Positions 1 to 20,500 of a stretch of 64,000 nt of DNA are shown here, in pieces. This DNA is from Butyrivibrio sp. AE3004 (GTDB taxonomy: Bacteria; Bacillota; Clostridia; Lachnospirales; Lachnospiraceae). How positions within the stretch are numbered: the first letter of the stretch is position 1; every line of letters starts with the position of its first letter. The notes under the pieces were generated by a model. The model made no database searches and had not been told where the DNA came from. It saw only the letters and a list, made by a program, of their open reading frames with translations. Where the stretch lies: positions 3,534,001 to 3,598,000 of the forward strand of contig NZ_JNLQ01000002.1 in assembly GCF_000703165.1 (NCBI RefSeq). The letters are read 5' to 3'. Made by a program: the position numbers and the translations under genes.

Positions 1-299
1 TAAGTAAGGACATTACCTTTACAAGTACCGGTGTAAATAATAAATTACACGGTACATTACAAGGGAAAATAACCATGTATCCAACATACACGATCATGAT
101 AGACGTCTGGATAGAGGATGGGGATACGGATTATCCGCTCACACTCACAATACCTGGTTCTGCCGAGACAGTGAAGGAAGATACACTTGGAACAAAAACA
201 AGTACTGGAGCATACACATCAAAGGATATTAAATATATTTCCTGGTCTAAGAGCGGAATGTATGTAACAAGTAAGAAAAAGGCACAAACAAATCCATAA
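1..299 (+). CDS. Partial hypothetical protein, 3' end only (probable pilin-cluster member)
   Basis: The reading frame is open from base 3 to the stop at 297-299, with no stop before the left edge. The gene therefore starts outside the window and only about 98 C-terminal residues are visible. The fragment is hydrophilic, with beta-type Thr/Ser/Gly content and a Lys-rich end, and shows no membrane segment or known motif. The next gene, a prepilin-like protein, begins 10 bases after its stop, and two more prepilin-type genes follow on the same strand. By context it may be the globular end of another pseudopilin. An internal ATG at 75 exists, but no ribosome binding site precedes it, so I treat it as internal. 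Function is not established. Confidence 0.6.
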   Translation, partial: SKDITFTSTGVNNKLHGTLQGKITMYPTYTIMIDVWIEDGDTDYPLTLTIPGSAETVKEDTLGTKTSTGAYTSKDIKYISWSKSGMYVTSKKKAQTNP

Positions 300-309
300 G
301 GTTATTATT

Positions 310-558
310 ATGATTGAAATAAAGAAATTGAGCAGAGTAAGGAGAAAACTAAATAACAGCTCCGGAGAATCACTGGGGGAAACTTTGGTGGCTCTCCTTA
401 TAGCAGCACTCGCGCTCACAATGCTTCCGGGAGCAATGGCGGCAGCTACAAAGGCTGATATCACCGCAAAGAAAGAATCGGTATATTACGATGATCCGGC
501 AGGAGGCACCGGATACGATAATGGAGTTGAAGTTACTGCATTTACTATAGGTAACTGA
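310..558 (+). CDS. Short type IV prepilin-like protein (82 aa)
   Basis: About 19 mostly basic or polar residues precede Gly-Glu-Ser-Leu-Gly-Glu and a roughly 20-residue hydrophobic stretch (TLVALLIAALALTMLPGAMA). This matches the class III prepilin layout: a prepilin peptidase site after Gly, Glu at mature position +5, then the pilin N-terminal helix. Only about 40 residues follow the helix, which is far shorter than a normal pilin head (usually 100 or more), so this is either a minimal minor pseudopilin or a truncated one. A weak AAGG overlaps the preceding stop codon about 8 bases before the ATG. It lies between two other genes of the apparent pilin operon. The prepilin assignment is from the motif; the role as a minor subunit is inferred. 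Confidence 0.7.
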   Translation: MIEIKKLSRVRRKLNNSSGESLGETLVALLIAALALTMLPGAMAAATKADITAKKESVYYDDPAGGTGYDNGVEVTAFTIGN

Positions 559-571
559 ATATTTTGGGGAA

Positions 572-1144
572 GTGATAGTTATTAAAAATCTGATTAAAAA
601 AATCAAAAAGAAAATAAGGTGTCAGGGCAATAAAGGATTTTCCATAGCTGAAATGCTTTTGGCGATGCTGATTTTACTTCTTGCATCACAGCTTGTTGCA
701 GAATCCATGAGACTTGCTGCGGCACACTATATAGACTATACAAATCATGCGCACGCGCAGATGATAATGTCCACGTTATCTGACTTTGTACGATCTGAGA
801 TCACAACGGCAAGTGAGATAGATGATACGAATGGTATTACGTTTTTAGATGGAAGCGGACTTATCGGTGGACGTTGTAAGATAGTTTGCGATGAGGATAC
901 TGTTTTTTTGCAAAATGTTAAGGACCCAGGTAAAAAGTATTACCCGATAGTGGGACTTGAGGGTGCAACCTCACATGATTATGCTGAGAAACTTAAGGTA
1001 AATGCAACATTTACCAAAAAGCAAAAGCCGACGACAGCTGATCCAAACTGGAAATTTGAACTTACTATTGAAGTGCTTGATAAAAAAGGAAATTCACTTA
1101 CTAAAGGCAAGTACGAGATTAAAATACCTGATAAAGTGAAGTAA
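572..1144 (+). CDS. Type IV prepilin-like protein (minor pseudopilin)
   Basis: A Lys-rich leader ends in Gly followed by Phe-Ser-Ile-Ala-Glu and a hydrophobic helix (MLLAMLILLLASQLV). This is the canonical prepilin N-methylation site with Glu at +5. About 150 residues follow as a head domain of mixed alpha/beta character, a normal size for a minor pilin or pseudopilin processed by PilD-type peptidase. The gene starts only 13 bases after the previous stop. The annotated GTG at 572 has GGGGA just one base upstream, an unusual spacing; an ATT at 581 would have normal spacing, so the exact start is uncertain. The next gene also begins with a prepilin signal, so the products probably assemble in one pilus or pseudopilus. 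Confidence 0.75.
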   Translation: MIVIKNLIKKIKKKIRCQGNKGFSIAEMLLAMLILLLASQLVAESMRLAAAHYIDYTNHAHAQMIMSTLSDFVRSEITTASEIDDTNGITFLDGSGLIGGRCKIVCDEDTVFLQNVKDPGKKYYPIVGLEGATSHDYAEKLKVNATFTKKQKPTTADPNWKFELTIEVLDKKGNSLTKGKYEIKIPDKVK

Positions 1145-1199: not shown

Positions 1200-4100
1200 A
1201 TGATAAAAGTAAATACTAAGGGGAATTCTAAGGACAGCCGCAAAAGGGCTGTATCCGGTTTTACTCTCGCAGAAATTCTTATAGCTATAGGAATACTGCT
1301 GATATTGATGGCAGTAGGTGTAATAGCGGCATCCACACTAATTAAAAATACTAGGCAGTCTCACCTTGATAAAAGAGCTGAGGCTGTTTACTATGCTGCT
1401 CAAAGCAGAATGATGGAACTCTTTGTAACTCAGGAAAAGGTTGAAGAAGAGATTACCAGAGATGGAAAGACCATCACTGTTTCGGTAGTCGATGAATTAT
1501 ATAACGGCAATACTTTTAGTTACGGCGGAAAAGATCTTGCATATGTTACTACTGATGATACAGATAGCATCATTTTTAAGGACAACAGCCTTGCAGCAGA
1601 ATTCGGAGGAAGCGCCGGTATCATCGAGTATGACCCTATAAGTCTTGATGTATATGCTGTTATTTTGTGTGACGATCTTACAAAAGCAGGTACTTCTCTT
1701 TCTGCTTTGACACAGCAGCCAAGCGGTGCGCCTGTCAGAGGAAGTGCGCAGGACAGAATAAGCGCTTATAAAAGTTATGTTGGATATTATGCAGAGGGTG
1801 ATTTCGGTAACCTTGGTGCAAAGGTAGATAGTGGTTTATCAGCAGGTGCCTGGATTGTAAACGGACGTGACCTTCTGGGAATAGTGAAGATTACTGTTGA
1901 TGAAGAAACAAAGGGACTGCTGACAGGCCTTTCCTATAAGCTTACTGTCAGAGGTCCTAAGAGCGGTGCGGAAGGAAGCGAGACCTATGCAGAGCTTAAC
2001 ATTACTTCAAGGGATATAATCTGGCAGAACTATGAGGGCGGACCTGATAATAACTACCTTGATATGACAGGTACAGGAACAGGTGCAGGTCAAAGATACA
2101 CAGTAAATGATGGAAAACTGCAACCGACATGGTTTGGAACTGCAGCAAGTGCCGGCGGTACTTATGGCCTGGTTGGTTACATCAAACTCGATTCACTTGA
2201 TAAAGATTATCATTTAAAAGATCTTCTTGCAGCAGGTACTGCAACAGACAATTCAACAGGAACAATAAATCCCGGAAACGATATTAGTATATCAATCAAA
2301 GTATGGGATTCTGCTTCTGAGGATGAATTATCGCAGCAGACAAGAAGTGCAAGTGCTGTTTCTAATATAGAAAACAGCTTGTTTGGCGACTTTGATAAAA
2401 AGGGTAACGTAAGTGTCGCAGAGATTATTTATCCCAGACACCTTCAGAACCTTGACTTTGAGTACGCAGGGGCAACAGCAACAGCAGCAGACGGAGCGGC
2501 TGCAGGTAGCAGCGGAATAGCAGCAGTTCTTGCTGAGGACATTGACTGGAATGAGACAGCAAATCTGTATCAGGGTGCTGTCAGAAACTTTACGCCTATA
2601 TCAAATGAGAACCTCATTTCCTTTACCGGTGAGAGGAAAGAATTAAATACCTCAACTCCATATATCGATCAGCTTGCAACAATAGCAATTGATGCCACTA
2701 ACCTTGTAACTGCATCCAATGCAATCACAGCAGTTGATCCCCAGGATGGAAATGAATTAGATGATCCCAAGGCTAACAAATTCCATGTAATAGAAGGCAT
2801 ACATATAGATACTGAAAACACTACATATCCCATTGTCGGAACAGACAGAAACGTGGGACTTTTTGGTGATCAGTCTGATGCAGTGATCGCAAATCTTGTT
2901 CTCAGAGATTTCGAGCTCAATAATACAGTTGTGTATCAGCCGACAGGTATGCTTGCAGGAAAGCTGACAAACTCTACGGTAAAAAATGTTTTTGCTTACA
3001 ATAAGAAAGATGATGCAGTAGCAAAAACCGTTAACGGAGCAGGCAGCACAGGTGGACTGTTCGGTACTGTTGAAGGCAGCAACACCGATGGCATCGTGAT
3101 TGACGGCTGTGTTGTTAAAAATGTTCTGGTTAAGTCAAACGGTGAAGCCGGTGGACTTGCAGGAACCATGAAAAACCATAAGGTAAAAAATGTCCTTACT
3201 TATGGAGAACAGCACTTTGATGGCTATATTACAACTGTCGGCGCAGCCGCAACAAATGGATTTACCGGAGGCATGTTCGGCTATGTTGAAGGCGGTACTG
3301 TAGATGGATGTATGGTTAAAAACATTGCAGTTACTTCAAATATAGAAGCCGGCGGATTTGCAGGAAAAATGAAAAACACCGCAGTAACGGATGTCCTTGT
3401 CTTCAACGAGGAAGAACAGGATAACAACGTTATTGTTCAGGGTGCCGGAAATGTTGGTGGATTCATTGGATTAACAGATGGCGGAACAATTACCGGATGC
3501 GGAACAGCACTCTATGTTGAAGGTGGTACTTCAGCAGGCGGATTTATCGGAAGTTCTACCAATACAACCATAGCTAAATGCTATGCAGGCGGTCATACAA
3601 TAGACGGCGGAAAATACAGCAGCACTGAGGATCATACAACCCCGGGCAGAATAAATGTTGTGGCAAGCGGAACAGTTGGCGGATTTATTGGAATATCAAA
3701 CGGCAGTGCTATATCCAACAGCTATACAACCTGCTCTGCAAAGGGAGCAACAAGAGGCGGATTTATGGGCAGTTCCTCAGGCGGAAGTGCTTATAACTGC
3801 TATACAACCGGCCAGGTGGTATTTGATGGTGAATCATCTGTTTCGGCAGGTGGATTTATAGGAAGCGGATCCACAACCGCATCTAACGATTACTATTTTG
3901 AAATCCTTAATAAAGTTGATGATAAGTATCTGCTCGGAATAGGCGGTGCTGATGAAAATCCTGATGGAATAAAAGCTCTTGATACTATAAAAGAAGCAGA
4001 GGGCATTATAAACGGAACAGCATTTACCTATAACAACAGTGTCATGGCAGCAGGTGATGTTTTCCAGGACAGAGAGACTCTGACAAAGAAATATGATGGT

Positions 4101-7100
4101 GGGTTACCGAATAAATATCCTATGAAGTTTTCATATGAACTTGCAGGGGAGGACTTTGATCCCACACAGGAAACAGATTATCTCTTCTTTGCTTTCGAAC
4201 ATCATGGTGATTGGCCAAGACCTGAGACAACCATAATTAATAGTCTTAGCAATAATCTTGGAGCATTTAATAAAAAGAACAGCACTAGTACCGTAGATCC
4301 TTTCTCTACTATTACTGTTATGGCTAACGGACTTGGAAGTGATGATTCAATAAGAGCTTTGGCAGAAGCGGTAATTACTGAGCCAATTCCAAAAGAAGAT
4401 ACCACAGAGCTTAAAGAGGTTTCAGAAAATAAAGAAACTACTGCTGAGTCTAATAATGAATCAAGTGAAAAGACAGAAGAAAAAGAAAGTACCGAAACAA
4501 CTCAGAATACCGAAACAACACAGAACACCGAAACAACACAGAACACAGAATCAGTAGAGAATAACGAGACAAAGCAGACTGAAGAAACAGTTCAGGAAAG
4601 CGAAACAACCACTAATAATGAAACTGTAGAAAGCGAAGAGCCTTCAGAAAAAACTGAGGAAACCGAAAGTAACGAGAAAACTCAGGAAGAAAATAAGGAG
4701 ACAGAGAAACAGGCTGAAGGAACAGAGAATACTACTGAAAATACAAATTCTGAGAGTCAGGCTTCAGAAGAACAGCCTAAGACTGAGCCCGGTAAGGAAG
4801 AACAGACAAATGAGACAGCTTCTCCTGAAAATGGCGAACAGAAACCGGCAGAAGCAGTAAATACTCCCGGTGAAGAGAATGCAAAGGATAAGGAAGCTGC
4901 TAAGAAGGCTGAAGAAATGCTTCAGGAAATGACAGCTGAGAGCATCGAAGAAACAGAAAACTTTGGTGAGTTTTCTATCGTCGATGAGGAGAAAGGCATT
5001 GCTATTTATTACAATGCAGATGCAAAGATTCCTGATGGCGCTGAGATAAAGCTTGTTGAAATTGTTGAGGATAGTGAGGATTATGACTATGCCCAGCTTA
5101 CTTCTGATGCAGCAGAAGCTGTGGAAATCGCACCTGAAGAGGTTGCAAGCTTTAAGGCTATGGATATTTCCATCGTAAAAGACGGAGAAGAAATCCAGCC
5201 GGCTGCACCTATACATGTTGAGATTAAGGCTGAGAAGTTTTATGGAAATAATGAGCTGTATGCTGATGATGTTATATCTGCAGTTCATATGAAGGAAAAA
5301 GAGCCTGAGGTTATTGAGGCAACAGTAACAAACGAAACAACCGAAGAAGAACAGACAGAGGAAAATCCTGCAACTACCGAAGCAGCTGAGACAGTAAGCT
5401 TTGAGACAGATGGATTCTCAGTTTACGTGCTTGTACAGTCGCTTTTACAGAAGCAGGTGGTTGCATCGGATGGAAATACATATGACATTACAGTCGATTA
5501 CGATAATGCTTCCGGAATTCCCGCAGGAGCAGAGCTTGTAGTTGAAGAAGTTTCAAATGGTTCTGAAGAATACAAGGGTTATCTTGATGAAAGTATTGGT
5601 GAACTTGATTCCTCAGATGATGATGTATGGTTTGCTCATGCGTTTGATATTTATTTCCTCGATCCCGAGACAGGTGATCACTATCAGCCGTCTAAGGAAG
5701 TTTCTGTATCTGTAAGACTGATGCAGGATGATGTAAATGAAGAAAGAGAAATGTCTGTTGTCCACTTCGGAGACAATACAGAGGTTATAGACTGCCAGGT
5801 TCAGGAAGAAGCAGTGACCTTTGAAGCAAACAGTTTCTCTGTTTATGTAGTAATCGGACATACAGGTGATAATGAAGTTAAAAATCCCCGTGTGGAATTC
5901 CACTTTATAGACGGTGATAACACAAATCTCGGAGGAGGTTTGTTCAGTGCGGCTCCTTATCAATTCGAAAATAAGGCAGGAACCAATCAGACAACTGAAA
6001 TAGTTAAGAATGGTGAGACTCTTGAACCCATTAAGAATCCTCCGAACAAAACTATTGATGACGGAACAGGGAATGCTGTAGAGCAGTATTTCTTTGGCTG
6101 GTATGTTGTTAATTACGATTCAGAAACCGGTGGTCAGATCAAATACTCCTGGACGGATGATCCTGACCAGGTTGTATTTGGTAAGGCTATTTCAATTACG
6201 CCTCCGACAAATGGAAGAGTTGGAGAAAACGTAACCTGGACAGTAAACGGAGCTTCAGGCACAGGCCCTCTTGCTGAGGATGGCTGCTGCCATGTTTACC
6301 TTGCACCTGTTTATGAGGATTACTATTTCATAAACTTCCATATGGGAACTAAGGAAGATACAACCCTTAGAAACAGTATCCTTGTCCGCAGAATGGTTGT
6401 CCTTGGAAATGACGGAAGTGTTACTGTACGCATCGGTGATATCAAGGCATCCAGCACAGATTCAACAAGAAAGGTTTTCGCAGGTTGGGAAACAGCTGAT
6501 TCAAATTATCAGACAGTGAACTGCTATTACTCGGTTGATGCGACAACGGGCGAAGAAGTTAGCAGTCCCGGAAGTACTTCAGGATATTATGTAACTTTCA
6601 ATCAGGCAGACTTTAATGACGAAGCTATTGATCTGTATCCTGTATTCGCAGAGGCAAGATGGATTAATTACAATACAGGTAAGAGCGGAAACAATGCGAC
6701 ATACATTCCTTCTCAGTACATCCTTACCAGTGACTCTGAGAACAGTTATTATGTTACTTCATTGCCGGGAGAAAATGAGGCTAAGAGAAGCGGTTATGCA
6801 TTTATGGGCTGGTATGCTGATGCTACGCTTGATACGGATGGTAATATAACTAACTTAAACAGCGGTGCGGTAAAGATTGCGAATGCAGACGGATCGCTTG
6901 TTTCGGATTATACAAAATATGATACGGATGGAACCACACCACTTTATAAGATAGAGGGAGGAAAACTTTATCTCTATAAGGAACTTGATTCCCTTACTCT
7001 CTATGCTTTGTGGCGTGAGTTTGATGATACTACCTACACGGTAATCATTTGGAAACAGAAGATTACTGATGACAAAAATGCTACTGCAGATCAAAAAGAC

Positions 7101-10100
7101 TACGATTATGAGAATTCATATGTTAACATAGCGGGACGTTCATCAAGCACCTTGGATGAACTGGATATAGCAAGTTATAAAGCATATAACTTTACCGGAT
7201 TCCATTACGCTAGATGTACTATGAGCACAAGTAAGCTTGAAAGTAACGGAACTTCGGTTGTAAATGTGTATTACGATCGTGATCTTATGACGATTATTTT
7301 TAATCCGAATGGACATACTATCAATATACCCGGAGCACAAACTAGCTATACTTATACTCAAACAAACGCAACTTCAGGTACTCTATATGGATATGTAGAC
7401 GGAAATTATTATCAGCTTACCAGAGGCAGTACTTATCAAGCGACAGTTTGGTATTTCAGTGATGTCTATACTCCTTCTAATTATGGGTACTACAAACTTT
7501 ATACACCGACTAAAACATATGCTTTAAATATTTCTGGTAATTACCAAAGCTATAGCAGATCTAACGGAAATGTGACAAATAATGTTTACTCAGGAACAAG
7601 ATATACGCGCAGTGGAGGAAACTATACAAATTATGTATATACTTCAACTACAGGAACTGGTGGAACGCAGTATGGCCTAGATTCGAACGGAGGATATGCA
7701 GAGCTACGATCACAAACAACCACATTGTATAGATGGACTTATGAAGATGATCAGGGACATCCACAAACTTATGAAGGAAACAGATATACAAGAAGTAGTT
7801 CTCAAAGTCTACAGTGGACAGGCTTATATGGCCAGACATTTGAGAAAAATGGTTATCATTGGAGTGATGTTGCAGGATATCAGTGGAATGATACTTCAGG
7901 TTCTTCAGGTGGAACAACGCAGACAATGTTGACTGCATTTACAGAGACAGCCAATCCTTATAATCTTTATTGTCGAGGAAATGCAGGAACAAGAGAAATT
8001 TATCATTACAGACAACAGTTAGACGGAACATATAGTGAGGATGATAAAGAAACTGCGAAATATAGTGCCGGTCAAACCACAACTTTCAATTATTCAAATA
8101 AATTCGATGGTTTTACAGTTGCATCATATTCAACAAATACTGAAGGATTTAGGCCTTCAGGTGGGGGACATGCGGTAGCACCTGGAGGTAGTTCGTCTTT
8201 AACGTCGCCACTTTATGTTTATCATACAAGAAACTCATACACTCTTACTTTGGATGTAAACTATCCGGAAGATATAAATTTGAGTTTCCCTAATGGAGCA
8301 AGTACGAATAAAGAGTATACTGTACTATTTGGTGATACCTTTAGCAGATTTAATGTCAATGGAACGGATTATTATTCACCGAATGTTCCTTATAGTTATC
8401 AATTTGAAGGTTGGTATGAGGATAAACCAGGTGAAGTTCCATTCGATTTCAATCAGACGATGCCTTCGGCTAATAAAATCATATATGCAAAATGGTCAAA
8501 ATTGAAGCACAGAGTAATGGTTGATCCTAATGGGGGAGAAATAGATCATATAGACCATCAATATTATAATGGTTTTTATAAAGGGTATGATGGAATTCGT
8601 CCTTTCAGAAATGATAATACAGGCTACAACAGAAGCCAGGCAACTTATATTAATATAGAATATGGAAAGCTATTAGGGGAATATGACATACATAGGAATT
8701 ACGTTCCTATAAGTGATACCGCAGCAGCTACTTACACAGGCCAAATTTATTACTATTTAAATACTCAGTATAACGAAAATGATGGTAGCGGTTTGCCAAG
8801 TGATTTACGAAATGCTATATATATTACCCCAGAAGAAATAGACGACTATTATAATTTTTATCACGATTTGACACAAGGGGCAATTAATAATGGTGATATT
8901 ACTGGTACTGTTGTATTAGGAAAAGAAGCATGGAAGAGTATCTATATTTCATCACAAAAATATAGGGAAAGATATCCGGGTGAGAACTATGAATTCCTGG
9001 GATGGTATAGACTTGATGCTTCCGGAAATCCGGAAAACATGCCAAATGATTTCTCACAGCCTGTTTCAGGACCATTTAAGATAAGGGCTTACTGGAGACT
9101 TGATGGTGGTTATTCAATAGAATATTTACCTGAAAGCATAGTAGAGAATGGCGGTACAAATGTCGTCATAAACGGTAACCTCTATCAGTGGAGAGATCCT
9201 GCTGTAACAGATTCCAATTATGCAGATGGTGCCGAAACAGAAATACTGCAGCAGCCTACAGGAATTACTGCTAATGGTAATCCTACGGATGAGTTTATCT
9301 TCAGAGGATGGAGACTTGTAACTAAATCAATAGATGGTGGTGGGAATGAAATTTACACACCTCTTGAGAATGATGTTTACTATGATCCAGGAGATGAATT
9401 TATAGTTAAGGCTGATTATGCTGATAGCCAGGGTAAGATTTATATGCAAGCCTATTATGAGGAAAGAGATTCTTCATACAGAAGACCTAACATTGCAAAT
9501 CTTACACTCGATGCAAATACCGGTTACATAACCCTTGATGGAAGTACTGAGCTTGAAACTAATACAGATCTGTCAAGTACATGGGATGGTATAGGAACTG
9601 TTTCAGCAACGGTTACAACTTCTACAGGAGATACCGAACGCATTGAATTTGGTAATATTCAGTCCAGTGCAGAAATAGAGCTATATAAATATGCGACTAC
9701 CCTTGATAAAGATGCTGCTAATAATCCTATAACGGATTCCAAGAACTACTTTGCACATAAAGATGGATATTTTCTTTTAGGATTTGATGACAGTAGTGAT
9801 GAGGGAGATTATATAGCAACCTATCCTGCAGATGCGATGATCGCTGTTCAGAGAACAGATAATAAGACCATATATGCTGTATGGGAGCCACTTGTATATC
9901 TTAACTTTGTAAATAATACAAATGTTGGGGATGTTACATTTGGGCTTAGCTCTACTGACAGTTCAGCACTTCAGGTTATTAATGTAAAGAACGGTATGTA
10001 TGACCGTACCCCTATTACGGATCTGAATAATATTACTGTCGCAAATGGGGAGACATTAAAGCTTGCTATACCTTATGGTGCGGAAAAGAATATAACCATA

Positions 10101-12578
10101 AGCGGAACAAATCACCTCGGTGCCGGAACAATGCTTTTGTGGCAGAGTGATGCGACTAACAATCCATCAAGTGGATTTGCTGAAAATGGAGATGATTATG
10201 CGTTTACAGAAACTCCGATAGTGGATGCTACCGGTATTACAGTAACATTTACTTCCAAGCAGCATGACAGGACGATAGTGCTTCACGATAACTATGGGGA
10301 CGATGAGACCCATGAGGTTTATCTTTCTTATGATGATGAAAGTACAATTCTTCCGACCACAAATACAAGACTTGGATATCAGTTTAAAGGATGGGCTAGT
10401 ACAAGTAATGCCACATCTGCGGAATATACTTCAGCAAATAACTATACAATTAGCAATTTGAATAACTTCTTTGGAACGGCGATTATAAAGGATTTATATG
10501 CTGTTTGGGAAGCACGAGCAGAAGCATCTACAGTATATGTATATAAATCCGTGACGCTACCAGGAGACAGAGATAAATACTTTGACTTTACTGTGTCATT
10601 TGATGGAAGCTGCAAACCAACAAATAATAGTACAAGAATTACTATAGAAAAAAAGTCAGCTACAATGACGCTAAAAAGTGGAGAGTATTTAAAAATATAT
10701 TCAGAGAAATATGTAGGAGAGTATCGTCTATATGGATTACTGGGTGCGCATCCTTATCTAAGAACAACGGTTACAAAGTATAATGACCTTGATGTTCAGG
10801 TTGGAAATTCCCAAGTTCTTTATTGGGAATACAATAGCAATGTGGAAGTAAATTATAATGATGGCGGAATTAACTATATGGTTAAGGAAGCAGATTATAA
10901 TGCAGATTTTTATGATACAAATGTTGCAGTTGCTGCAGAACTTACCCAAGGTTCTATTGTTCCATCGCAGTCTGACAGAAATATCCTATGGCATGATTCA
11001 GACGCCGGTGGTACTGCAATCTTCACAAACTCATTGCAGACAGTGGATATCAAGGTTGAGAAGGAACTCATAAATGACACTGAAACTCCTGTAACCACTA
11101 ACTTTGGATTTACAGCATCGTACATAATTGACAAGGGACTTCCGACAGAAGATGAACAACTTCTGGAAAGCTTTAATGTTACAAGCGGCTCCTATTATAT
11201 GCTGGAGAAAGTGCCGGTAGGTGTTGAGCTTGTGATAAAAGAGATTAAGCAGGATGACTATGATACTGAGGTTTTAGCGAGCTCAGACACGGCCACAATT
11301 GACGGAACTTATGATAAGGATGAAAATTCGTTCCTCTTTGTAGTGCCTAAACAGAACAATATCAAAGTCAAATTTACGAATACTCTTAAGTCCTATAAGG
11401 TGACACTTTACAAGGTGGACGGTAAAGAACAACCCGGTGTTGAGGCACTCTTTACATTGGCACAGGATGCAAGTATATTAGGAACACTTCTTTATCCTAA
11501 CCAGACAACAGGTGTGTTCTATCCTCGTCCGAATTCGACAAAGCCTAAGATGTATGTTGGAGAGTACACACTTACGGAGACCTGGGTAGAGTCCGGATTT
11601 ATGCAGCTGGAAGATCCAATCAAACTGACCATATCCGGAGAGGATAACGGAAAGATTACCTCTGATGACAAGGTGCATGTAAAGGTTAAGGAAGAGATTG
11701 TTAACGGAGAGAAGGAGTTTAAGGTTTACATCATTAACTCCAACGGTGCGGATATTTCCTTCAAGAAGATCGATGGCTACGGAAATCCTTTAAAGAATGA
11801 AGGTACTGATTCAGAAGCATGGTTTGCACTTTACAAGACCTTTGCTGATGCGCAAAATGCAGCCGTCACAGATACTGAAGCAGGAACATCCTTTGATGAG
11901 GATGACACCAAGCTTGAAACTGTAACCATTACCACAGGCACAGGTGCAAATGAGGTTAAGGAGCAGAAGGTATATGCTACTCAGGATGACGAAGGTGAGG
12001 TTAAGTTCGAGATTCCTGCAGGCACATACTTCATGAAGGAAGTAAAGGCTCCTAAGGATTATACCTTTGACAGTACTGAGTATTCCGATTATGGTGTTAC
12101 ACTTCCGCAGGGAACTGATGAACTTCAGTGTATCTACAGAATCGTTGTTGGTACTGAAGCTGCTACTGATGCTGGAGTGACACTCGGTGAAAATGAAGAG
12201 TTCAAGATTCAAAGGATGAAGGATGATACAAATGTTGATGAGGACCTTGATGTCGAGAAGTATGGCATAATGAATATTTCAACAAAGACTGAGAGAATAG
12301 TCCTTAGGAAAGAGGCTACCACAGGATTACCTCTTACCGGAGCTATCTTCGATATAATAAGACCTGACAGATCATATTATAAAAAGAATCTCTCATCAGG
12401 TTCAGCAGGAGGATTCTGCGTGGCTGATCTGCCATACGGATATTACTATCTGTATGAAAGCGCAGCACCTTTAGGATATGCGGGATCAGGAAAATATTAT
12501 AAGCTGACAATCGACGAAAACGGCAAGACGTTATCAAGTCCGGAAAACTCAATTGAAGCATTTGAACCACAACCTTAA
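1200..12578 (+). CDS. Giant surface adhesin with type IV prepilin N-terminus (3,792 aa)
   Basis: The start at ATG 1200 has GGGAG nine bases upstream; a TTG in the same frame at 1179 is less likely. Residues 1-20 form a basic leader ending in Gly20, then Phe21-Thr-Leu-Ala-Glu25 and a hydrophobic helix, a clear prepilin signal. Next come a pilin-like head region, GLUG-type Gly-rich repeats (about 615-890), and a Glu/Thr/Asn-rich linker (about 1066-1244) holding 18-bp repeats near 4491-4550. Two domains ending in FSVYV follow (1254-1557), then many Flg_new/InlB-B type units with FxGWY and LYAxW signatures (about 1560-3107), broken by a Tyr-rich block (about 2031-2337). CnaB/SpaA-like domains (YLYESAAPLGY, FMKEVKAPKDY) fill about 3111 to the end. 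No LPXTG, sorting signal or C-terminal membrane helix is present. Role: probably an adhesin displayed through a pilus-type anchor; this is inferred. Confidence 0.85.
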   Translation: MIKVNTKGNSKDSRKRAVSGFTLAEILIAIGILLILMAVGVIAASTLIKNTRQSHLDKRAEAVYYAAQSRMMELFVTQEKVEEEITRDGKTITVSVVDELYNGNTFSYGGKDLAYVTTDDTDSIIFKDNSLAAEFGGSAGIIEYDPISLDVYAVILCDDLTKAGTSLSALTQQPSGAPVRGSAQDRISAYKSYVGYYAEGDFGNLGAKVDSGLSAGAWIVNGRDLLGIVKITVDEETKGLLTGLSYKLTVRGPKSGAEGSETYAELNITSRDIIWQNYEGGPDNNYLDMTGTGTGAGQRYTVNDGKLQPTWFGTAASAGGTYGLVGYIKLDSLDKDYHLKDLLAAGTATDNSTGTINPGNDISISIKVWDSASEDELSQQTRSASAVSNIENSLFGDFDKKGNVSVAEIIYPRHLQNLDFEYAGATATAADGAAAGSSGIAAVLAEDIDWNETANLYQGAVRNFTPISNENLISFTGERKELNTSTPYIDQLATIAIDATNLVTASNAITAVDPQDGNELDDPKANKFHVIEGIHIDTENTTYPIVGTDRNVGLFGDQSDAVIANLVLRDFELNNTVVYQPTGMLAGKLTNSTVKNVFAYNKKDDAVAKTVNGAGSTGGLFGTVEGSNTDGIVIDGCVVKNVLVKSNGEAGGLAGTMKNHKVKNVLTYGEQHFDGYITTVGAAATNGFTGGMFGYVEGGTVDGCMVKNIAVTSNIEAGGFAGKMKNTAVTDVLVFNEEEQDNNVIVQGAGNVGGFIGLTDGGTITGCGTALYVEGGTSAGGFIGSSTNTTIAKCYAGGHTIDGGKYSSTEDHTTPGRINVVASGTVGGFIGISNGSAISNSYTTCSAKGATRGGFMGSSSGGSAYNCYTTGQVVFDGESSVSAGGFIGSGSTTASNDYYFEILNKVDDKYLLGIGGADENPDGIKALDTIKEAEGIINGTAFTYNNSVMAAGDVFQDRETLTKKYDGGLPNKYPMKFSYELAGEDFDPTQETDYLFFAFEHHGDWPRPETTIINSLSNNLGAFNKKNSTSTVDPFSTITVMANGLGSDDSIRALAEAVITEPIPKEDTTELKEVSENKETTAESNNESSEKTEEKESTETTQNTETTQNTETTQNTESVENNETKQTEETVQESETTTNNETVESEEPSEKTEETESNEKTQEENKETEKQAEGTENTTENTNSESQASEEQPKTEPGKEEQTNETASPENGEQKPAEAVNTPGEENAKDKEAAKKAEEMLQEMTAESIEETENFGEFSIVDEEKGIAIYYNADAKIPDGAEIKLVEIVEDSEDYDYAQLTSDAAEAVEIAPEEVASFKAMDISIVKDGEEIQPAAPIHVEIKAEKFYGNNELYADDVISAVHMKEKEPEVIEATVTNETTEEEQTEENPATTEAAETVSFETDGFSVYVLVQSLLQKQVVASDGNTYDITVDYDNASGIPAGAELVVEEVSNGSEEYKGYLDESIGELDSSDDDVWFAHAFDIYFLDPETGDHYQPSKEVSVSVRLMQDDVNEEREMSVVHFGDNTEVIDCQVQEEAVTFEANSFSVYVVIGHTGDNEVKNPRVEFHFIDGDNTNLGGGLFSAAPYQFENKAGTNQTTEIVKNGETLEPIKNPPNKTIDDGTGNAVEQYFFGWYVVNYDSETGGQIKYSWTDDPDQVVFGKAISITPPTNGRVGENVTWTVNGASGTGPLAEDGCCHVYLAPVYEDYYFINFHMGTKEDTTLRNSILVRRMVVLGNDGSVTVRIGDIKASSTDSTRKVFAGWETADSNYQTVNCYYSVDATTGEEVSSPGSTSGYYVTFNQADFNDEAIDLYPVFAEARWINYNTGKSGNNATYIPSQYILTSDSENSYYVTSLPGENEAKRSGYAFMGWYADATLDTDGNITNLNSGAVKIANADGSLVSDYTKYDTDGTTPLYKIEGGKLYLYKELDSLTLYALWREFDDTTYTVIIWKQKITDDKNATADQKDYDYENSYVNIAGRSSSTLDELDIASYKAYNFTGFHYARCTMSTSKLESNGTSVVNVYYDRDLMTIIFNPNGHTINIPGAQTSYTYTQTNATSGTLYGYVDGNYYQLTRGSTYQATVWYFSDVYTPSNYGYYKLYTPTKTYALNISGNYQSYSRSNGNVTNNVYSGTRYTRSGGNYTNYVYTSTTGTGGTQYGLDSNGGYAELRSQTTTLYRWTYEDDQGHPQTYEGNRYTRSSSQSLQWTGLYGQTFEKNGYHWSDVAGYQWNDTSGSSGGTTQTMLTAFTETANPYNLYCRGNAGTREIYHYRQQLDGTYSEDDKETAKYSAGQTTTFNYSNKFDGFTVASYSTNTEGFRPSGGGHAVAPGGSSSLTSPLYVYHTRNSYTLTLDVNYPEDINLSFPNGASTNKEYTVLFGDTFSRFNVNGTDYYSPNVPYSYQFEGWYEDKPGEVPFDFNQTMPSANKIIYAKWSKLKHRVMVDPNGGEIDHIDHQYYNGFYKGYDGIRPFRNDNTGYNRSQATYINIEYGKLLGEYDIHRNYVPISDTAAATYTGQIYYYLNTQYNENDGSGLPSDLRNAIYITPEEIDDYYNFYHDLTQGAINNGDITGTVVLGKEAWKSIYISSQKYRERYPGENYEFLGWYRLDASGNPENMPNDFSQPVSGPFKIRAYWRLDGGYSIEYLPESIVENGGTNVVINGNLYQWRDPAVTDSNYADGAETEILQQPTGITANGNPTDEFIFRGWRLVTKSIDGGGNEIYTPLENDVYYDPGDEFIVKADYADSQGKIYMQAYYEERDSSYRRPNIANLTLDANTGYITLDGSTELETNTDLSSTWDGIGTVSATVTTSTGDTERIEFGNIQSSAEIELYKYATTLDKDAANNPITDSKNYFAHKDGYFLLGFDDSSDEGDYIATYPADAMIAVQRTDNKTIYAVWEPLVYLNFVNNTNVGDVTFGLSSTDSSALQVINVKNGMYDRTPITDLNNITVANGETLKLAIPYGAEKNITISGTNHLGAGTMLLWQSDATNNPSSGFAENGDDYAFTETPIVDATGITVTFTSKQHDRTIVLHDNYGDDETHEVYLSYDDESTILPTTNTRLGYQFKGWASTSNATSAEYTSANNYTISNLNNFFGTAIIKDLYAVWEARAEASTVYVYKSVTLPGDRDKYFDFTVSFDGSCKPTNNSTRITIEKKSATMTLKSGEYLKIYSEKYVGEYRLYGLLGAHPYLRTTVTKYNDLDVQVGNSQVLYWEYNSNVEVNYNDGGINYMVKEADYNADFYDTNVAVAAELTQGSIVPSQSDRNILWHDSDAGGTAIFTNSLQTVDIKVEKELINDTETPVTTNFGFTASYIIDKGLPTEDEQLLESFNVTSGSYYMLEKVPVGVELVIKEIKQDDYDTEVLASSDTATIDGTYDKDENSFLFVVPKQNNIKVKFTNTLKSYKVTLYKVDGKEQPGVEALFTLAQDASILGTLLYPNQTTGVFYPRPNSTKPKMYVGEYTLTETWVESGFMQLEDPIKLTISGEDNGKITSDDKVHVKVKEEIVNGEKEFKVYIINSNGADISFKKIDGYGNPLKNEGTDSEAWFALYKTFADAQNAAVTDTEAGTSFDEDDTKLETVTITTGTGANEVKEQKVYATQDDEGEVKFEIPAGTYFMKEVKAPKDYTFDSTEYSDYGVTLPQGTDELQCIYRIVVGTEAATDAGVTLGENEEFKIQRMKDDTNVDEDLDVEKYGIMNISTKTERIVLRKEATTGLPLTGAIFDIIRPDRSYYKKNLSSGSAGGFCVADLPYGYYYLYESAAPLGYAGSGKYYKLTIDENGKTLSSPENSIEAFEPQP
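4491..4550 (+). repeat. 18-bp tandem repeats coding Thr-Glu-Thr-Thr-Gln-Asn
   Basis: Three near-identical 18-bp units sit in the Glu/Thr-rich linker of the giant adhesin and encode the hexapeptide TETTQN. They are in frame, so copy-number change would alter linker length without breaking the gene. Confidence 0.7.
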
Positions 12579-12582
12579 ATGT

Positions 12583-12616
12583 AAAAGAGCGAAGCGATCA
12601 CAGCTTCGCTCTTTTT
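12583..12616 (+). terminator. Rho-independent terminator of the pilin/adhesin operon
   Basis: Arms AAAGAGCGAAGC and GCTTCGCTCTTT form a 12-bp stem with a 7-base loop, followed by a T run. It starts 5 bases after the adhesin stop codon. Confidence 0.9.
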
Positions 12617-13727: not shown

Positions 13728-16700
13728 ATGAACAGGATGAAGCACTGGCAGAGTTATCTTCTGATAATTATCTGTGTTGCGATAAATCTTTGTGGTAGAT
13801 ACCTGGCAAGCCGGGTTGAGATACCCTTCTGGTTTGATTCAATAGGCACATTAATTGCAGCATTTGAGCTGGGGCCTGTGGGCGGTGCTATCACAGGTGC
13901 CCTTGTCAATGTGTGCACTTCTTTTTATGACCTGAAAAATCTTGCTTATATTCTTGTGTCCATAGCAATAGGTGCTTCTGCAGGTCTTATTTTTCCAAAG
14001 AAAAAATTTGATGCTTTTATGATAATTTCGGCAGCAGTCTTTGCGGGCTTCATGGCTGTCATCATATCAACGCCTTTAAACATGATATTCTATGACGGCA
14101 AAACCGGAAATGTCTGGGGAGACAGTCTTATAGATATGCTCTCCCAGAGTATAAATGTTAAGTGGATATGCTCTCTTTTGGGCGAGGCCTTTGTGGATAT
14201 TCCTGACAAGGCGGTAAGCGTTGTTATGGCGGTAGCTTCTGCTACTTTAGTTAAGAGGTTACTAAAAAAGCTTGGTTTAACAGGTAAAAATATCAATAAA
14301 GAATCTCAGGGAATACAGCTGCTTGTGCTGATCCTTCTTCCGATTGAGCTTCTTGTTTTTGGAACAGCAAGAGTAAATGCTGCAGATTTTGGGGCTGATT
14401 ATGCTGCAATAGGTTATGACACAGAGGATGGTCTGGTATCTGAGGAACTTAATGCAGTTGCCCAGACTTCTGATGGCTATATATGGGCAGGTGCGTATTC
14501 GGGACTTTACAGATATGACGGCTACAAATTTGAGCAGGTTCAGCTCGATGAAAGAATTACAAATGTAATGCAGCTTTTTGCGGATTCGGAAGGGAATCTG
14601 TGGATAGGTACTAATGACAGCGGAGTAGCAAGATATAATACCGAGACAGAAAAAATTGATTTTTTCTCGGTTGATGATGGGCTTTCTTCCAACTCAATCC
14701 GTGCAATCTGCGAGGATGCAAAGGGGAATGTATATGTAGGAACAACAGGAAATTTATGCGTCATAGGAACTGACGGACAGGTTACGGAATTTCCGGAGGA
14801 ATTATATTCGGTAAGAACTCTTAGCTTTGACAATATGTCGGATAAAAATCTGATTGTCGGAGTTACTAATGGCGGTGAGCTTTTTTTTATAGAGGATAAT
14901 CAGCTGATTTCCATCTCAGTTATGAATGATGAGTCGGGAGTTTATTACGGTGCTGCGGCAGCAGGGGATGATGATACTTTTCTTGTTGGTACAAGTGCCG
15001 ATTATGCGGTCAGGGTTAAGCTCTTAGATGACGGAACGATCAGGGAAATATCCAGGGTTACTACGAATGAGATTTCTTATTTTAACAGAGTTATGTATTC
15101 GAAAGAAAATGCGGGATATTTCTTTTGCTGCGAAAACGGACTTGGATTCATATCGGATGACGGTACTGTAACAGATATGTCTGCAGAGGATTTCAACAGC
15201 TCTGTCAGTGATGTCATTATGGATTATCAGGGTAATATCTGGTTTGCGTCCAACAAGCAGGGAATTGAGAGATACTCATGGAATCCCTTTGAGGATGTAT
15301 TTGCAAAAGCCGGGATAGAAAGATCCGTTGTTAATGCACTTTTGATAAAGGATACAATTCTATATATAGGAATGGATAACGGACTTGTGGCGCACGACTT
15401 AAAAAATGACAGGGTAATACAGGTTCCGGATCAGCAGGTATTTGACGGTGTCAGGGTAAGGCATCTTATGGCTGATTCAAAAGGTAATATCTGGGTAAGC
15501 ACCTATGGTCAGAACGGGCTTATTGAGATTACGCCTTCAGGTGAGACTGTATTTTTCAATGAGGAAACAGCAGGAACTGTTGGCGGAAGATTCAGGTCAG
15601 CGACAGAGCTGCCTGATGGCAGGATATTTGCAGCAAGCAGTACGGGCCTGAATTATATTGAAGATGGAAAGGTTACCGCTACGCTTTCCGAAGAAGATGG
15701 TATTGGTGCTCAGATTCTTTCTGCTGTGGTTGATGAGAACGGAAGAATCATAGCAGGCTCTGACGGTGATGGTGTTTACATAATCGAGGATGAAAAAATA
15801 ACTTCAAGGATAGGTGAGGAGCAGGGGCTTGGGTCACCTGTAATTTTGAAGGTTGTTCCCTGTGACGGAGGTTATATTTTTGTCACAAGTAATGCGCTTT
15901 ACTATTTTGATGGGGCAAAGGCTTCCAAGTTAAATAAGTTCCCTTACAGTAACAACTATGATGTCTATATAGGAGAAAACGGAGAAGCGTGGGTTAGCTC
16001 CAGCGCAGGTATTTTTGTTGTGGATAAGGATGCGCTTATTCGAAACGAAGATATAAGTTATGCTCTTTTAAACAGGAGTAGAGGTTTCTATACGAGTCTT
16101 ACTGCCAATGCAACAAATGCGGTGATGGATTCTGACATTTACCTTTGCTGTACGGACGGTGTGCGCAAAATATCTCTCACGGACTACAATTCCTTCGACA
16201 ATGATTATCAGATAAGGGTTTCAAGACTCTGGGCAGAGGATGATCTTATTTCGGAAAGGGATGGGAAGTATGTAATTCCAGCTATTTCAGGGCGTGTTCG
16301 CTTTGATATCGCAGTTCTTAATTTTACGCTTTCGAATCCTTTGATCCATGCATTTCTCGACGGAACTTCCGACAGTGGTATCACATGCTATCAAAATGAG
16401 ATGCAGAGTCTTACCTATACAAATCTTCCCTACGGAAAGTACAAGCTTCATGTACAGGTGCTTGATAGCGGAGGAGACGGTGTAATAAGGGAAGAGATTT
16501 TTAATATAGAAAAAGAATCACAGCTTTTTGAGAGGACATATTTCAAGGTATATCTGATTTTTGTTCTCGTGATGTTTACCTTTTTCCTTGGATGGCTGCT
16601 TGGAAGACTAAGGAAAAGTCTTTCAAATATGCAGACCTGGAAAAAAGAGGCTACAACCGATCCCATGACGGGACTTTATAATAAAGCAACGTCTAAGAGG

Positions 16701-17570
16701 GAACTCACCCAGCTTTGCAAAACAAAGAAGGGTATCCTGATGATGATCGATCTTGACAGCTTTAAACTGGTCAATGATCTTTACGGTCACGATATGGGAG
16801 ATAAGGTTCTTATCAGCTTTGCCGATATTATAAGGTCATGTATAAGAGATACGGACCTTGCGGGACGTATGGGCGGTGATGAGTTTATAGCTTTTCTTCA
16901 GGGGACGGATGATGAAAACGCCGTTGCCGAGAAAACAAGATATATTAATGAGCAGATTGTAAAAGTGGCTAAAGAGCTCATGGGAGACGACATGAACATC
17001 CCGCTTGGTGCTTCAATAGGTGCGGTTATTGCGCCTGATGAGGGCACTGATTACGAGGCACTTTTCGGGCTTGCGGATAAAGCCTTGTATAACGTAAAGC
17101 AGAACGGAAAACACGGCTATGCAATGTACAGGAAGGCTAACTCGAAGGTTAATTTCTCCGATGCAACTATGGCAACGGGACTTGCCGGAATACGCAAGAT
17201 CCTGGGAGAAAGAAACATCGCCAAGGGAGCCTATACTGTTGATTTCAACAGACTTCAGGCTATTTACAGAACCTTTGTCAGGATGTCCAAAAGGACGGAT
17301 GTAAGGGTTTCGATAGTCCAATTTGTAATAAACCCTGTTTCCGGAAATGAGATTTCGAAAGATATAGTAGATACATTTTTGGATATTCTTGTTAATACCC
17401 TTAGGGCAAATGATGTAGTTGCGCTTAACGGTAAAAATCAGGCGATAGTAATCCTTACGGATATTAACGATGATTCGGAGAAGGCGCCCATCGGACGTAT
17501 CATGGAAAAATGGGATAACATCCCGGGGCACAATGATTACAGGGTAACTTATGAAATAGAAGCACTTTGA
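13728..17570 (+). CDS. Membrane sensor: ECF S-component-like domain + beta-propeller + Y_Y_Y + diguanylate cyclase
   Basis: 1,280 residues. Residues 1-190 form a multi-helix membrane domain with FDSIGTLIAAFELGPVGGA and repeated Gly-rich helices, resembling ECF-transporter substrate-binding (S) components. A further helix near 200-220 leads to an extracellular beta-propeller (about 222-850) of two-component-regulator type, with recurring DGYIWAGAYSGLYRYDG and GNIWFASNKQGI blades, then a Y_Y_Y-like domain. A membrane helix (about 940-962) precedes a GGDEF domain with intact GGDEF at 1049-1053 and an RxxD inhibition site (RDTD) five residues before it. The last 130 residues look like a second, degenerate GGDEF. 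It probably senses a ligand outside and makes cyclic di-GMP inside. The S-component match is by pattern only. Its paralogue starts 13 bases downstream. Confidence 0.8.
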   Translation: MNRMKHWQSYLLIIICVAINLCGRYLASRVEIPFWFDSIGTLIAAFELGPVGGAITGALVNVCTSFYDLKNLAYILVSIAIGASAGLIFPKKKFDAFMIISAAVFAGFMAVIISTPLNMIFYDGKTGNVWGDSLIDMLSQSINVKWICSLLGEAFVDIPDKAVSVVMAVASATLVKRLLKKLGLTGKNINKESQGIQLLVLILLPIELLVFGTARVNAADFGADYAAIGYDTEDGLVSEELNAVAQTSDGYIWAGAYSGLYRYDGYKFEQVQLDERITNVMQLFADSEGNLWIGTNDSGVARYNTETEKIDFFSVDDGLSSNSIRAICEDAKGNVYVGTTGNLCVIGTDGQVTEFPEELYSVRTLSFDNMSDKNLIVGVTNGGELFFIEDNQLISISVMNDESGVYYGAAAAGDDDTFLVGTSADYAVRVKLLDDGTIREISRVTTNEISYFNRVMYSKENAGYFFCCENGLGFISDDGTVTDMSAEDFNSSVSDVIMDYQGNIWFASNKQGIERYSWNPFEDVFAKAGIERSVVNALLIKDTILYIGMDNGLVAHDLKNDRVIQVPDQQVFDGVRVRHLMADSKGNIWVSTYGQNGLIEITPSGETVFFNEETAGTVGGRFRSATELPDGRIFAASSTGLNYIEDGKVTATLSEEDGIGAQILSAVVDENGRIIAGSDGDGVYIIEDEKITSRIGEEQGLGSPVILKVVPCDGGYIFVTSNALYYFDGAKASKLNKFPYSNNYDVYIGENGEAWVSSSAGIFVVDKDALIRNEDISYALLNRSRGFYTSLTANATNAVMDSDIYLCCTDGVRKISLTDYNSFDNDYQIRVSRLWAEDDLISERDGKYVIPAISGRVRFDIAVLNFTLSNPLIHAFLDGTSDSGITCYQNEMQSLTYTNLPYGKYKLHVQVLDSGGDGVIREEIFNIEKESQLFERTYFKVYLIFVLVMFTFFLGWLLGRLRKSLSNMQTWKKEATTDPMTGLYNKATSKRELTQLCKTKKGILMMIDLDSFKLVNDLYGHDMGDKVLISFADIIRSCIRDTDLAGRMGGDEFIAFLQGTDDENAVAEKTRYINEQIVKVAKELMGDDMNIPLGASIGAVIAPDEGTDYEALFGLADKALYNVKQNGKHGYAMYRKANSKVNFSDATMATGLAGIRKILGERNIAKGAYTVDFNRLQAIYRTFVRMSKRTDVRVSIVQFVINPVSGNEISKDIVDTFLDILVNTLRANDVVALNGKNQAIVILTDINDDSEKAPIGRIMEKWDNIPGHNDYRVTYEIEAL

Positions 17571-17583
17571 TGAGGCGATGATT

Positions 17584-20500
17584 GTGAAAATGAAAAAATG
17601 GCAAACCTGCCTTTTGATAGCAGTTTGCGTTTTTATCAATCTCATAGGAAGAAGTTTTGCTGAGCATTTCCAGCTTCCGTTCTGGCTTGATTCAATAGGG
17701 ACGATTATTACGGCTATTGAGCTTGGTCCTGTCGGAGGTGCTGTTTGCGGTGCTTTTTCAAATATTCTTTTGGGAATAATAACCGTAAACATCAAGACAC
17801 TAGCGTATCTGATAGTGTCTGTATGTATAGGTGTTTCAGTTGGTCTTTTTTATCCAAAGGCAAGTACTCAGACAGCTTTCAAGGTGGCATCAACTGCCGT
17901 TCTTACCGGAATTGTTGCTGTTGCAGTTTCAACTCCCATGAATTTATATTTATATGGTGGAAGAACAGGAAACATCTGGGGAGATGGTCTTATAGACATG
18001 ATAGCAAGGGATGTTAATGTCCCTGTCTTATGCACGTGTCTGGGAGAGGCTTTTGTGGATATTCCGGATAAGGCTCTTAGTGTGCTCTTGGCATCGGGAA
18101 TGATCAAGCTTTATTACATTTTTATAGACAGGAGAAAAAAGAGTACGGCAGATAGTGCTTTGTTGTGGCTTTTGGTGCCTGTAATTGTCATGACGTCCAT
18201 GACATTTTCAATTAATGCAAAAGCTATAGATATGAGCTCCGAATATGCGGCTACTACATATGATACAGACGATGGCCTTGCTACAGTGGAAATAAATGCC
18301 ATTGCTCAGACGAATGACGGTTATATCTGGGCCGGCACTTATGCGGGACTATACCTGTGTGACGGTTACAGGTTTGAGGAAATTGTACTTGATGAGAGAA
18401 TCAGCAGTGTAATGGTACTTTATGTTGATTCTGAAGGTATGCTTTGGATAGGAACCAATGACAGCGGTCTTGCATGCTTTAATCCTACAGACAGGACTAT
18501 CAGGTTTATTACTGAGGAGGACGGACTTCCTTCAGATTCAATAAGGGCTATTTGCGAAGATACTGACGGGTATATGTATGTGGGCACGGCAACCGCCCTT
18601 TGCATGTTTGGAAAAGACGGAAAGATACAGACTTTTGATGATGATGGAATAAAAGTTGTAACGTCACTTACCTGCAATTCGAAGGATGTTGTTGCCGGCG
18701 TAACAATGGCGGGTGAACTGTTTATTATAAAAAATCATGAGTATGTGGATAAGATAGGACTTGATGATGAAAATACCAAGTTTGGAGCAGTTGCTGCAGG
18801 AGAGCGTGACGAGTTTTATGCGGGTTCAACCTCAAACTATGTAATTCAGGTTAATGTTTCAGATGATAAGATAGAGCTTGGAAAAAAATACACCATAGGA
18901 CATTCTGAGTATTTTAACAAGCTATATTATTCACCGCAGAATAACGGATTTTTCTGTGGCCTTGAGAACAGCTGCGGCTTCCTTACAAAAGAAGGCAAGT
19001 TTACCGAAATGACCACCGACAGTTTTAACGGAGCGGTCAAGGATATAATGGTGGATTATCAGGGGAATGTCTGGTTTGCGTCAAACAAACAGGGTATTGT
19101 CAGATATTCCTGGAATCCGTTTACGGATATTTTTGCAAGAGCAGGTGTGAACCCGGAGGTTGTTAATTGTACGCTGATAAAGGATGGCATGCTGTATGTC
19201 GGTACAAATAATGGCCTTGTGACGATCGATCTTAAGACCTTTTATGCTGTTCCCATTGATTTTCCTGAGCTTTTTAAGGACGTGAGAATAAGATATCTCA
19301 TGGAAGACTCAAAGGGGAATTTATGGGTAAGTACATACGGTAAGCATGGTCTTATCGAGATTAAAGCAGATGGCACGATAGATACTTATAATGAAAGAAA
19401 TAAAAATACCAATGGCAGCAGGTTCAGGCTGACCATGGAGCTTGAGGACGGGACCATAATTGCGGCTAGCACCACCGGAATAAATTTTATTAATGGCGGA
19501 GTTGTCACAGGGACAATGGGAGAAAAAGAAGGACTGACAACTCAGGTTCTTAGTATGGTTGACATTGGTCATGGATATGTAGAGCTTGGTACTGATGGCG
19601 AGGGCATAATGATTATCAAGGATGGAGAGATCATTCATCAGTATGGCAAGGATGACGGTATGGGATCGCTGGTAATCATGAAAATAGTGCCTTGCGGAGA
19701 CAACGAGTACCTTTATGTAACAAGTAACGCCCTTTACCACTATAAGGATGAGAAGGTTACAAAGCTTACAAATTTCCCCTATAACAATAATTACGATGTT
19801 TTCTTTACTGAAGACGGCTATGCCTGGATCAGCTCCAGTGCAGGTATTTTCATAGTCAAAAAGAGTGATCTTCTGGAAAACGGTGAGTATAACTATATGC
19901 TTTTAAACAAGGGGCGCGGATTGTATTCGGCGCTTACTGCCAATTCGGAAAACTCTTATTACAATGGTTCTCTTTACTTATGCTGCGCTGACGGTGTAAG
20001 GAGGATTGCCATAGCTGATGAAAATGTTGTGGATACGGATTATACAATAACGATCAGCAAGCTGACTGCAAATAACGAGATAATAGAGCCTGATGAAAAC
20101 GGAAATTATGTTATTCCTGCCATTTCAGGAAGAATAACCTTTGATGTTGCTGCGCTTAATTTTACGTTGTCGGATCCGCTTCTTCATATCTTCCTTGAGG
20201 GAACAGGAGATGACGGAATTACATGCAAACAAAAAGAGATGAAATCCCTTAGTTATATTAATCTTCCTTACGGTGATTATACCCTGAGGGTTCAGGTTTA
20301 TGATTCAGCGGGAAAGGACATTGTCCGTGAGGAAAAATTCCATATAACAAAGGAGTCACAGATTTTTGAGAGGACGTATTTTAAGGCATATCTGATTTTT
20401 GTTTGTACCTTATTTGTAATGTTTATCGGCTGGCTCATCGGTAACATCAGGATGGGTATTACAAATATGGAAAAATTGGAGAAGGAAGCCAGGATAGATC

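Follow-up and report, generated by a model that had tools for sequence, protein, structure and literature searches.

The question raised by this locus was how a protein of 3,792 amino acids (aa) that begins as a type IV prepilin would be displayed by the cell. The window analysed comprised 64,000 nucleotides of Butyrivibrio sp. AE3004 (NZ_JNLQ01000002.1, forward-strand positions 3,534,001 to 3,598,000) and lies within contig 2 of a 4.47 Mb genome of six contigs. The gene, termed the giant here, occupies 1200..12578 on the + strand, and its product has a predicted mature form of 3,772 aa (414 kDa). The product is probably a minor pilin of giant, modular build that belongs to a retractable type IV pilus, where it would occupy the H-type place of the minor pilin set and act as a tip effector. 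This assessment was built on the operon, the prepilin signal, the homology of the pilin module, the neighbouring genes, the variable distal part and the predicted fold. A pilus subunit of 414 kDa, with relatives up to twice its length, tests the tolerance of pilus assembly, retraction and cell-wall passage. How these fibres get through the cell wall of monoderms is treated in the literature as unsettled (PMC6916266, PMC13192262).

Prepilin start and domain architecture

The giant gene is intact, with an ATG at 1200, a stop codon ending at 12578 and no internal stop in an open reading frame (ORF) check, which confirmed the length given in an initial annotation. Its first 20 residues (1200..1259, +) form a basic leader, MIKVNTKGNSKDSRKRAVSG, which ends in Gly20 and is followed by FTLAE. 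This is a class III prepilin signal (G20/F21TLAE25) with Glu at +5 (Glu5) and a hydrophobic stretch behind it. N_methyl (PF07963) was matched at 24.4 bits in the whole-genome scan, above the cut-off of 21.2, and at 18.6 bits, below it, in the protein scan. Residues 23 to 77 were predicted as a helix by AlphaFold2. The short charged leader to Gly, the hydrophobic helix and Glu at +5 expected of a type IV pilin are therefore all present, as annotated for Gly20, Phe21, Glu25 and the helix, and cleavage after Gly20 would be carried out by PilD. Maximum hydropathy beyond residue 100 was 1.27, in line with the annotated lack of a C-terminal membrane helix. Because no other membrane-helix candidate was found by hydropathy, the pilin helix is the only membrane anchor seen in the giant.

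The conserved pilin module comprises residues 21 to 208 (1260..1823, +). In the predicted structure it has the type IV pilin arrangement of a long N-terminal helix (residues 23 to 77) on a beta-sheet head; conserved residues are E25, A60, E143, R186 and G195. The N-terminal parts of nine giants, this one included, were aligned as one module, with pairwise identities to the AE3004 protein of 14-22% and invariant columns at G20, F21, T22, L23, E25, A60, E143, G195, Y196 and L226. Family models matched the giant's module weakly and by ComGE only (23.1 bits, cut-off 49). Weak matches among 43 modules were to GspG (8), GspH (7) and ComGE (7). Foldseek searches with both predicted models returned no match at E ≤ 0.001, the top rows being unrelated. 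Pilins surfaced only with a second structural aligner, and the predicted module fold appears to resemble that of pseudopilins. The PilC beta-propeller domain had no Pfam match in the giant (E ≤ 0.1) or in 32 giants including it (0.001), and membership of PilY1 was rejected on this ground.

The module is followed by a beta domain at residues ~209-335 (1824..2204, +), called Ig-like from its predicted strands and matched folds, and by an RHLxN segment at residues 413-417 (2436..2450, +). In 31 of the 32 giants compared, the pattern R[HY][LIM]xN was present at an equivalent position. GLUG-type GGxxG repeats occupy residues ~431-1010 (2490..4229, +) and probably fold as a beta-solenoid. The GLUG repeats of the initial annotation were not detected by Pfam at E ≤ 0.1, but seven copies of GG[FL]xG occur at residues 618-884 (1,000 shuffles: mean 0.07, maximum 2). 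Pfam Glug was matched in 10 of the 32 giants scanned. An acidic, Tyr-free linker with 26% D+E spans residues ~1011-1260 (4230..4979, +).

Beyond it lie a Flg_new/List_Bact (InlB-B-like) repeat region (6060..10049, +; best stretch residues 2389-2431) and SpaA (CnaB-like) domains reaching the C-terminus (10800..12578, +; best stretch residues 3703-3778), both with approximate outer limits. SpaA and Flg_new each exceeded the whole-protein cut-off, with three stretches at E ≤ 0.1 and two at 0.001. The annotated InlB-B and CnaB-like repeats were thereby borne out, and their position behind the pilin module is the feature of a modular pilin. No sorting signal (LPXTG-type motif, helix, charged tail) was found at the C-terminus, and sortase anchoring of the giant was rejected for this reason. 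The annotated absence of LPXTG does not hold to the letter, since LPTTN and LPLTG strings occur. Neither looks like a sorting signal, because LPLTG, 83 residues before the end, lies within the last SpaA match and neither string has a helix or charged tail behind it.

The pilus operon and its minor pilins

A separate locus (L005) covered the 18 kb that precede the window; it reaches only the start of the giant. From base 7034 of L005, genes in one orientation encode a 128-aa prepilin (GFTLAE; pilA-like), an 800-aa sulfatase-family protein, a 121-aa protein and PilB with T2SSE and MshEN domains. A second T2SSE ATPase (PilT-like), PilC (T2SSF), PilD (A24_N, A24), PilM and a T2SSM/PilO-like protein follow, the last with a Pfam match below cut-off. 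PilD, PilB, PilC, PilM and the second ATPase were all above Pfam cut-offs, which is the genomic context of a type IV pilin. The check for pilus machinery advised in the initial annotation thus found pilD, pilB, pilT-like, pilC, pilM and pilO-like genes upstream in the same orientation as the giant.

The tail of the operon comprises three minor prepilin-like genes (223, 82 and 190 aa), 55 bases and then the giant as the last gene. The K-like protein (223 aa; L005:17628-18299, 3' part at window 1..299, +) lacks Glu5 (RG/ASLVVALVIF); it was read by eye and had no Pfam match. The I-like protein (82 aa; 310..558, +), with G followed by ESLGETLVALLIA, was labelled solely by its sequence pattern and its position in the gene order and had no Pfam or NCBIfam match. 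The J-like protein (190 aa; 572..1144, +), with G followed by FSIAEMLLAMLIL, had N_methyl and ComGF matches below cut-off. The last two are the small prepilin genes that had been annotated directly upstream. No K, I or J minor pilin was identified above cut-off by curated models. From patterns and gene order, we took I to be the short GETLVEVLVA type, K the protein without Glu5 and J the third; the giant's place was called H by elimination. Four minor pilin genes therefore stand together, as read by eye, with a K-like member lacking Glu5 as in an HIJK set.

A terminator-like hairpin of five pairs followed by a T run (12593..12610, +) is the probable end of the operon. The terminator scan gave two sites in 400 bases, one per strand at this place, where shuffles expect 0.3. 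Cyclic-di-GMP control of the pilus is possible because PilB carries an MshEN domain, a family that binds cyclic-di-GMP. Rfam at gathering score gave no match in the window or L005, hence no cyclic-di-GMP riboswitch was seen.

Some further genes were recorded. The 800-aa sulfatase-family protein (L005:7478-9880), presumably similar to lipoteichoic acid synthase, has its gene between pilA and pilB; no such gene occupies this place in L080 and L081, two Butyrivibrio loci that extend as far as pilA. Isolated prepilin genes occur elsewhere in the genome (L002:1483-2064, 193 aa; L004:1462-1812, 116 aa), and inspection by eye of these 3-kb loci showed no pilus gene. Downstream of the operon, 13728-17570 and 17578-21402 encode tandem large sensors with a Reg_prop propeller, Y_Y_Y and GGDEF; the first has an ECF-transporter-like membrane part, matched below cut-off.

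Giants in other genomes

N_methyl was matched in 92 of 200 Lachnospiraceae genomes, and several among the matches listed open very long frames. A profile of the nine-giant module matched 167 of 397 family genomes, many over the pilin helix only. Counts were therefore made among the matches listed (to ~E 2e-12) that reach model position 159 or beyond, a limit set after viewing the list. Module-length matches comprised at least 56 proteins in at least 52 family genomes. Frames of at least 1,000 codons accounted for at least 47 proteins in at least 44 of the 397 genomes (1,435-7,664 codons, median 3,039), and the match begins at the prepilin site in 43 of the 44, again among the matches listed. 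Nine of these 44 genomes were sources of the profile itself and the other 35 were new. Within the genus, 13 of 61 genomes had a match in a frame of 1,000 codons or more; in three of them (G400, G424, G446) that match covered the first 82 positions only. In a 291-genome draw of the class, giants with module-length matches outside the family came from at least four genomes (G611, G550, G689, G539), which belong to three further families. The proposed search for further proteins of more than 1,500 residues with a prepilin start thus returned dozens. The presence of giants with an alignable module at their start in at least 44 of 397 family genomes led to the rejection of a chance prepilin-like start or fusion artefact. 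Giants share the pilin module, and nearly all of the 32 compared also share the RHLxN-type segment and GGxxG (GLUG-like) repeats; distal parts differ. The conserved module offers a simple sequence handle for finding and sorting such tips in genomes.

Gene neighbourhoods were inspected for 55 giants, a set that does not hold the AE3004 giant because L005 has only its start. At least two other prepilins lay within 5 kb on the same strand for 41 of the 55, a prepilin without Glu5 within 5 kb for 42, and at least one PilB/T/C/D/M/O match within the fetched stretch for 40. On non-pilus DNA of the AE3004 genome, the prepilin caller made one call (with Glu5) in 66 ORFs. Among the 14 giants without two neighbouring prepilins, the stretch ends inside the giant or one of a pair in L017 (2), L024 (2), L098 (2), L107 and L112. 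The others (L081, L110, L113, L116, L125, L145) are not so explained; a neighbour without Glu5 is present for those of L081 and L125. Giant prepilin genes stand in tandem in L098:5003-20000 (G184), L017 (G120) and L024 (G160), and in G120 and G160 one of the two has a major-pilin-like start with a module match over its first part only.

In a few genomes the module alone, at 190-226 residues, occupies the giant's place. In G152 and G626 it is encoded as a protein of ordinary size (~190-200 aa), and K-, I- and J-like genes come next. The same form occurs in G686 on a short contig, with K- and I-like genes behind it. In both G626 and G686 the K-like gene escaped the prepilin caller and was read by eye. 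A shorter form in G172 (L141), which ends before the conserved GYY motif beside K/I/J-like genes, may be truncated, a remnant of a giant. In a tree of 51 modules, ordinary-size versions fall at three places among the giants, with support shown for one joint (G626/G686, 0.994). Because ordinary-size module proteins hold the same place beside K/I/J-like genes, the giant is best interpreted as a minor pilin to which an arm has been grafted.

The distal part varies most. Over the N-terminal 344 residues, identity to the giant was 78% in LC3010, 70% in INlla16, 67% in VCD2006, 54% in AC2005, 51% in XPD2002 and 34% in one Butyrivibrio metagenome-assembled genome, and all six close-relative loci were Butyrivibrio. 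Identity to LC3010 was 72-84% over the first 500 residues, 59% over the next 100 and then 22-46%, except for two blocks of 56-61% at residues 1301-1500. Identity to VCD2006, AC2005 and XPD2002 drops too, more gradually; that to INlla16 is 40-83% along the whole length, mostly ~70%. The LC3010, INlla16 and VCD2006 proteins end at the locus end, which may lower their last-block identities. This pattern is as expected of a distal effector that is exchanged or fast diverging. Distal domains of relatives include F5/8C and M26_N. The G179 giant (L106:81-20000 + L107:1-3066; 7,658 aa, prepilin start) has an NlpC/P60 domain (4.3e-15) and a SleB-type hydrolase domain (1.2e-13) at its end. Such a fusion of a hydrolase to a putative pilus tip is of interest because the wall hydrolase LytF promotes competence pilus extrusion in Streptococcus sanguinis (PMC13192262).

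A wider class may be tentatively proposed, which we regard as possible rather than probable: Lachnospiraceae giant tip pilins, each an H-type minor pilin with a conserved Ig/GLUG stalk and an exchangeable arm (total ~7,660 residues at most), one per retractable pilus. At least one arm ends in two peptidoglycan-hydrolase domains, with which the tip could cut out through its own wall or attack neighbours. Because Lachnospiraceae are common in gut and rumen communities, such a swappable giant tip would, if real, offer a candidate explanation for their choice of what to adhere to.

Proposed mechanism, alternatives and known systems

In the proposed mechanism, the first helix would insert the chain through Sec and PilD would cut after Gly20. 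Within the membrane, the pilin module would then associate with the K-, I- and J-like minor pilins, take the H-type (FimU/GspH) place and help to prime the filament. PilB and PilC would extrude the filament tip-first, leaving one giant at or beside the tip. The Ig-like and GLUG parts would serve as a stalk, the distal Flg_new and SpaA domains would bind a surface, and the PilT-like ATPase would retract the filament with its giant load. Strains and lineages differ in the distal part but retain the pilin module. The initial annotation had placed the protein at the pilus base or tip; because of the neighbouring minor pilins, this can be narrowed to the tip as the expected site.

It is unlikely that the giant is a PilD-processed subunit along the shaft, or a long surface protein held in the membrane near the pilus base with the helix as a mere anchor. 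The giant has Glu5, which is required for packing in the filament, and membership of the tip set is suggested by the frequent K-I-J neighbours and by module homologues of ordinary size that occupy the same position. In favour of this alternative, hydropathy reveals no anchor besides the pilin helix, and a location of modular pilins in the filament body is left possible by Raynaud et al. (PMC8179133).

That the operon encodes a pseudopilus like that of type II secretion systems (T2SS), or a DNA-uptake pilus, with the giant as secretion or DNA-capture tip, is improbable. The sub-cut-off matches to ComGE (own module) and GspG/GspH (relatives) and the predicted likeness to pseudopilins would fit it. 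Against these stand the second, PilT-like ATPase and PilM, both typical of retractable type IVa pili, and distal domains of surface-protein type (SpaA, Flg_new and, in relatives, F5/8C and M26_N). A conventional wall-anchored adhesin with a chance or artefactual prepilin start is scarcely credible: the genome has six sortase matches, five above cut-off, and SpaA and Flg_new are usual in wall-anchored proteins, but no sorting signal was seen and an alignable prepilin module opens giants in dozens of genomes, most inspected ones beside pilus genes.

The giant as a tip minor pilin was compared with known systems. Like sortase-anchored Gram-positive adhesins and SpaA-type pilins, it is a long surface protein with SpaA/CnaB-like and Flg_new/InlB-B-type repeats; unlike them, it lacks a sorting signal and shows no membrane segment besides the pilin helix. 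The definition of modular pilins comes from S. sanguinis; more than 1,200 were counted in InterPro, and the most extreme multi-domain case has 860 residues (PMC8179133). The S. sanguinis PilB and PilC proteins (50.5 and 52.8 kDa) carry one added domain each, ordinary type IV pilins there being 14-17 kDa (PMC8179133, PMC9934059). PilABC is a proposed tip complex to which PilA, without Glu5, is added first (PMC9934059). The giant shares with these PilB and PilC proteins a Glu5 prepilin start, a pilin module, a grafted effector and minor-pilin neighbours. It differs in its 414 kDa, in a relative of ~7,660 residues and in a shared family core (pilin module, Ig-like domain, RHLxN, GLUG-like repeats). 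Modular pilins as such are already known; no description of kilo-residue pilins of this size class and core was found in the literature searched, which mostly excluded subscription journals.

In Thermus thermophilus ComZ, a minor pilin is likewise combined with a beta-solenoid (PMC8179133), that of the giant being putative. The ComZ solenoid is inserted in the pilin-head sheet, whereas the giant's repeats come after the module, in a protein thousands of residues long. The likeness to the diderm HIJK set with PilC/PilY1 (PMC9934059, PMC10191384) lies in four minor pilins in the operon, a K protein without Glu5 and a very large protein that is adhesive and at the tip in diderms, and presumably so here. 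PilY1 is not a pilin but a protein of its own, with a propeller at its C-terminus (PMC8179133), and is given as absent from monoderms (PMC9934059); here the large effector is fused to a minor pilin. By this analogy, the best reading is that the giant does in a monoderm what minor pilins and PilY1 together do in diderms.
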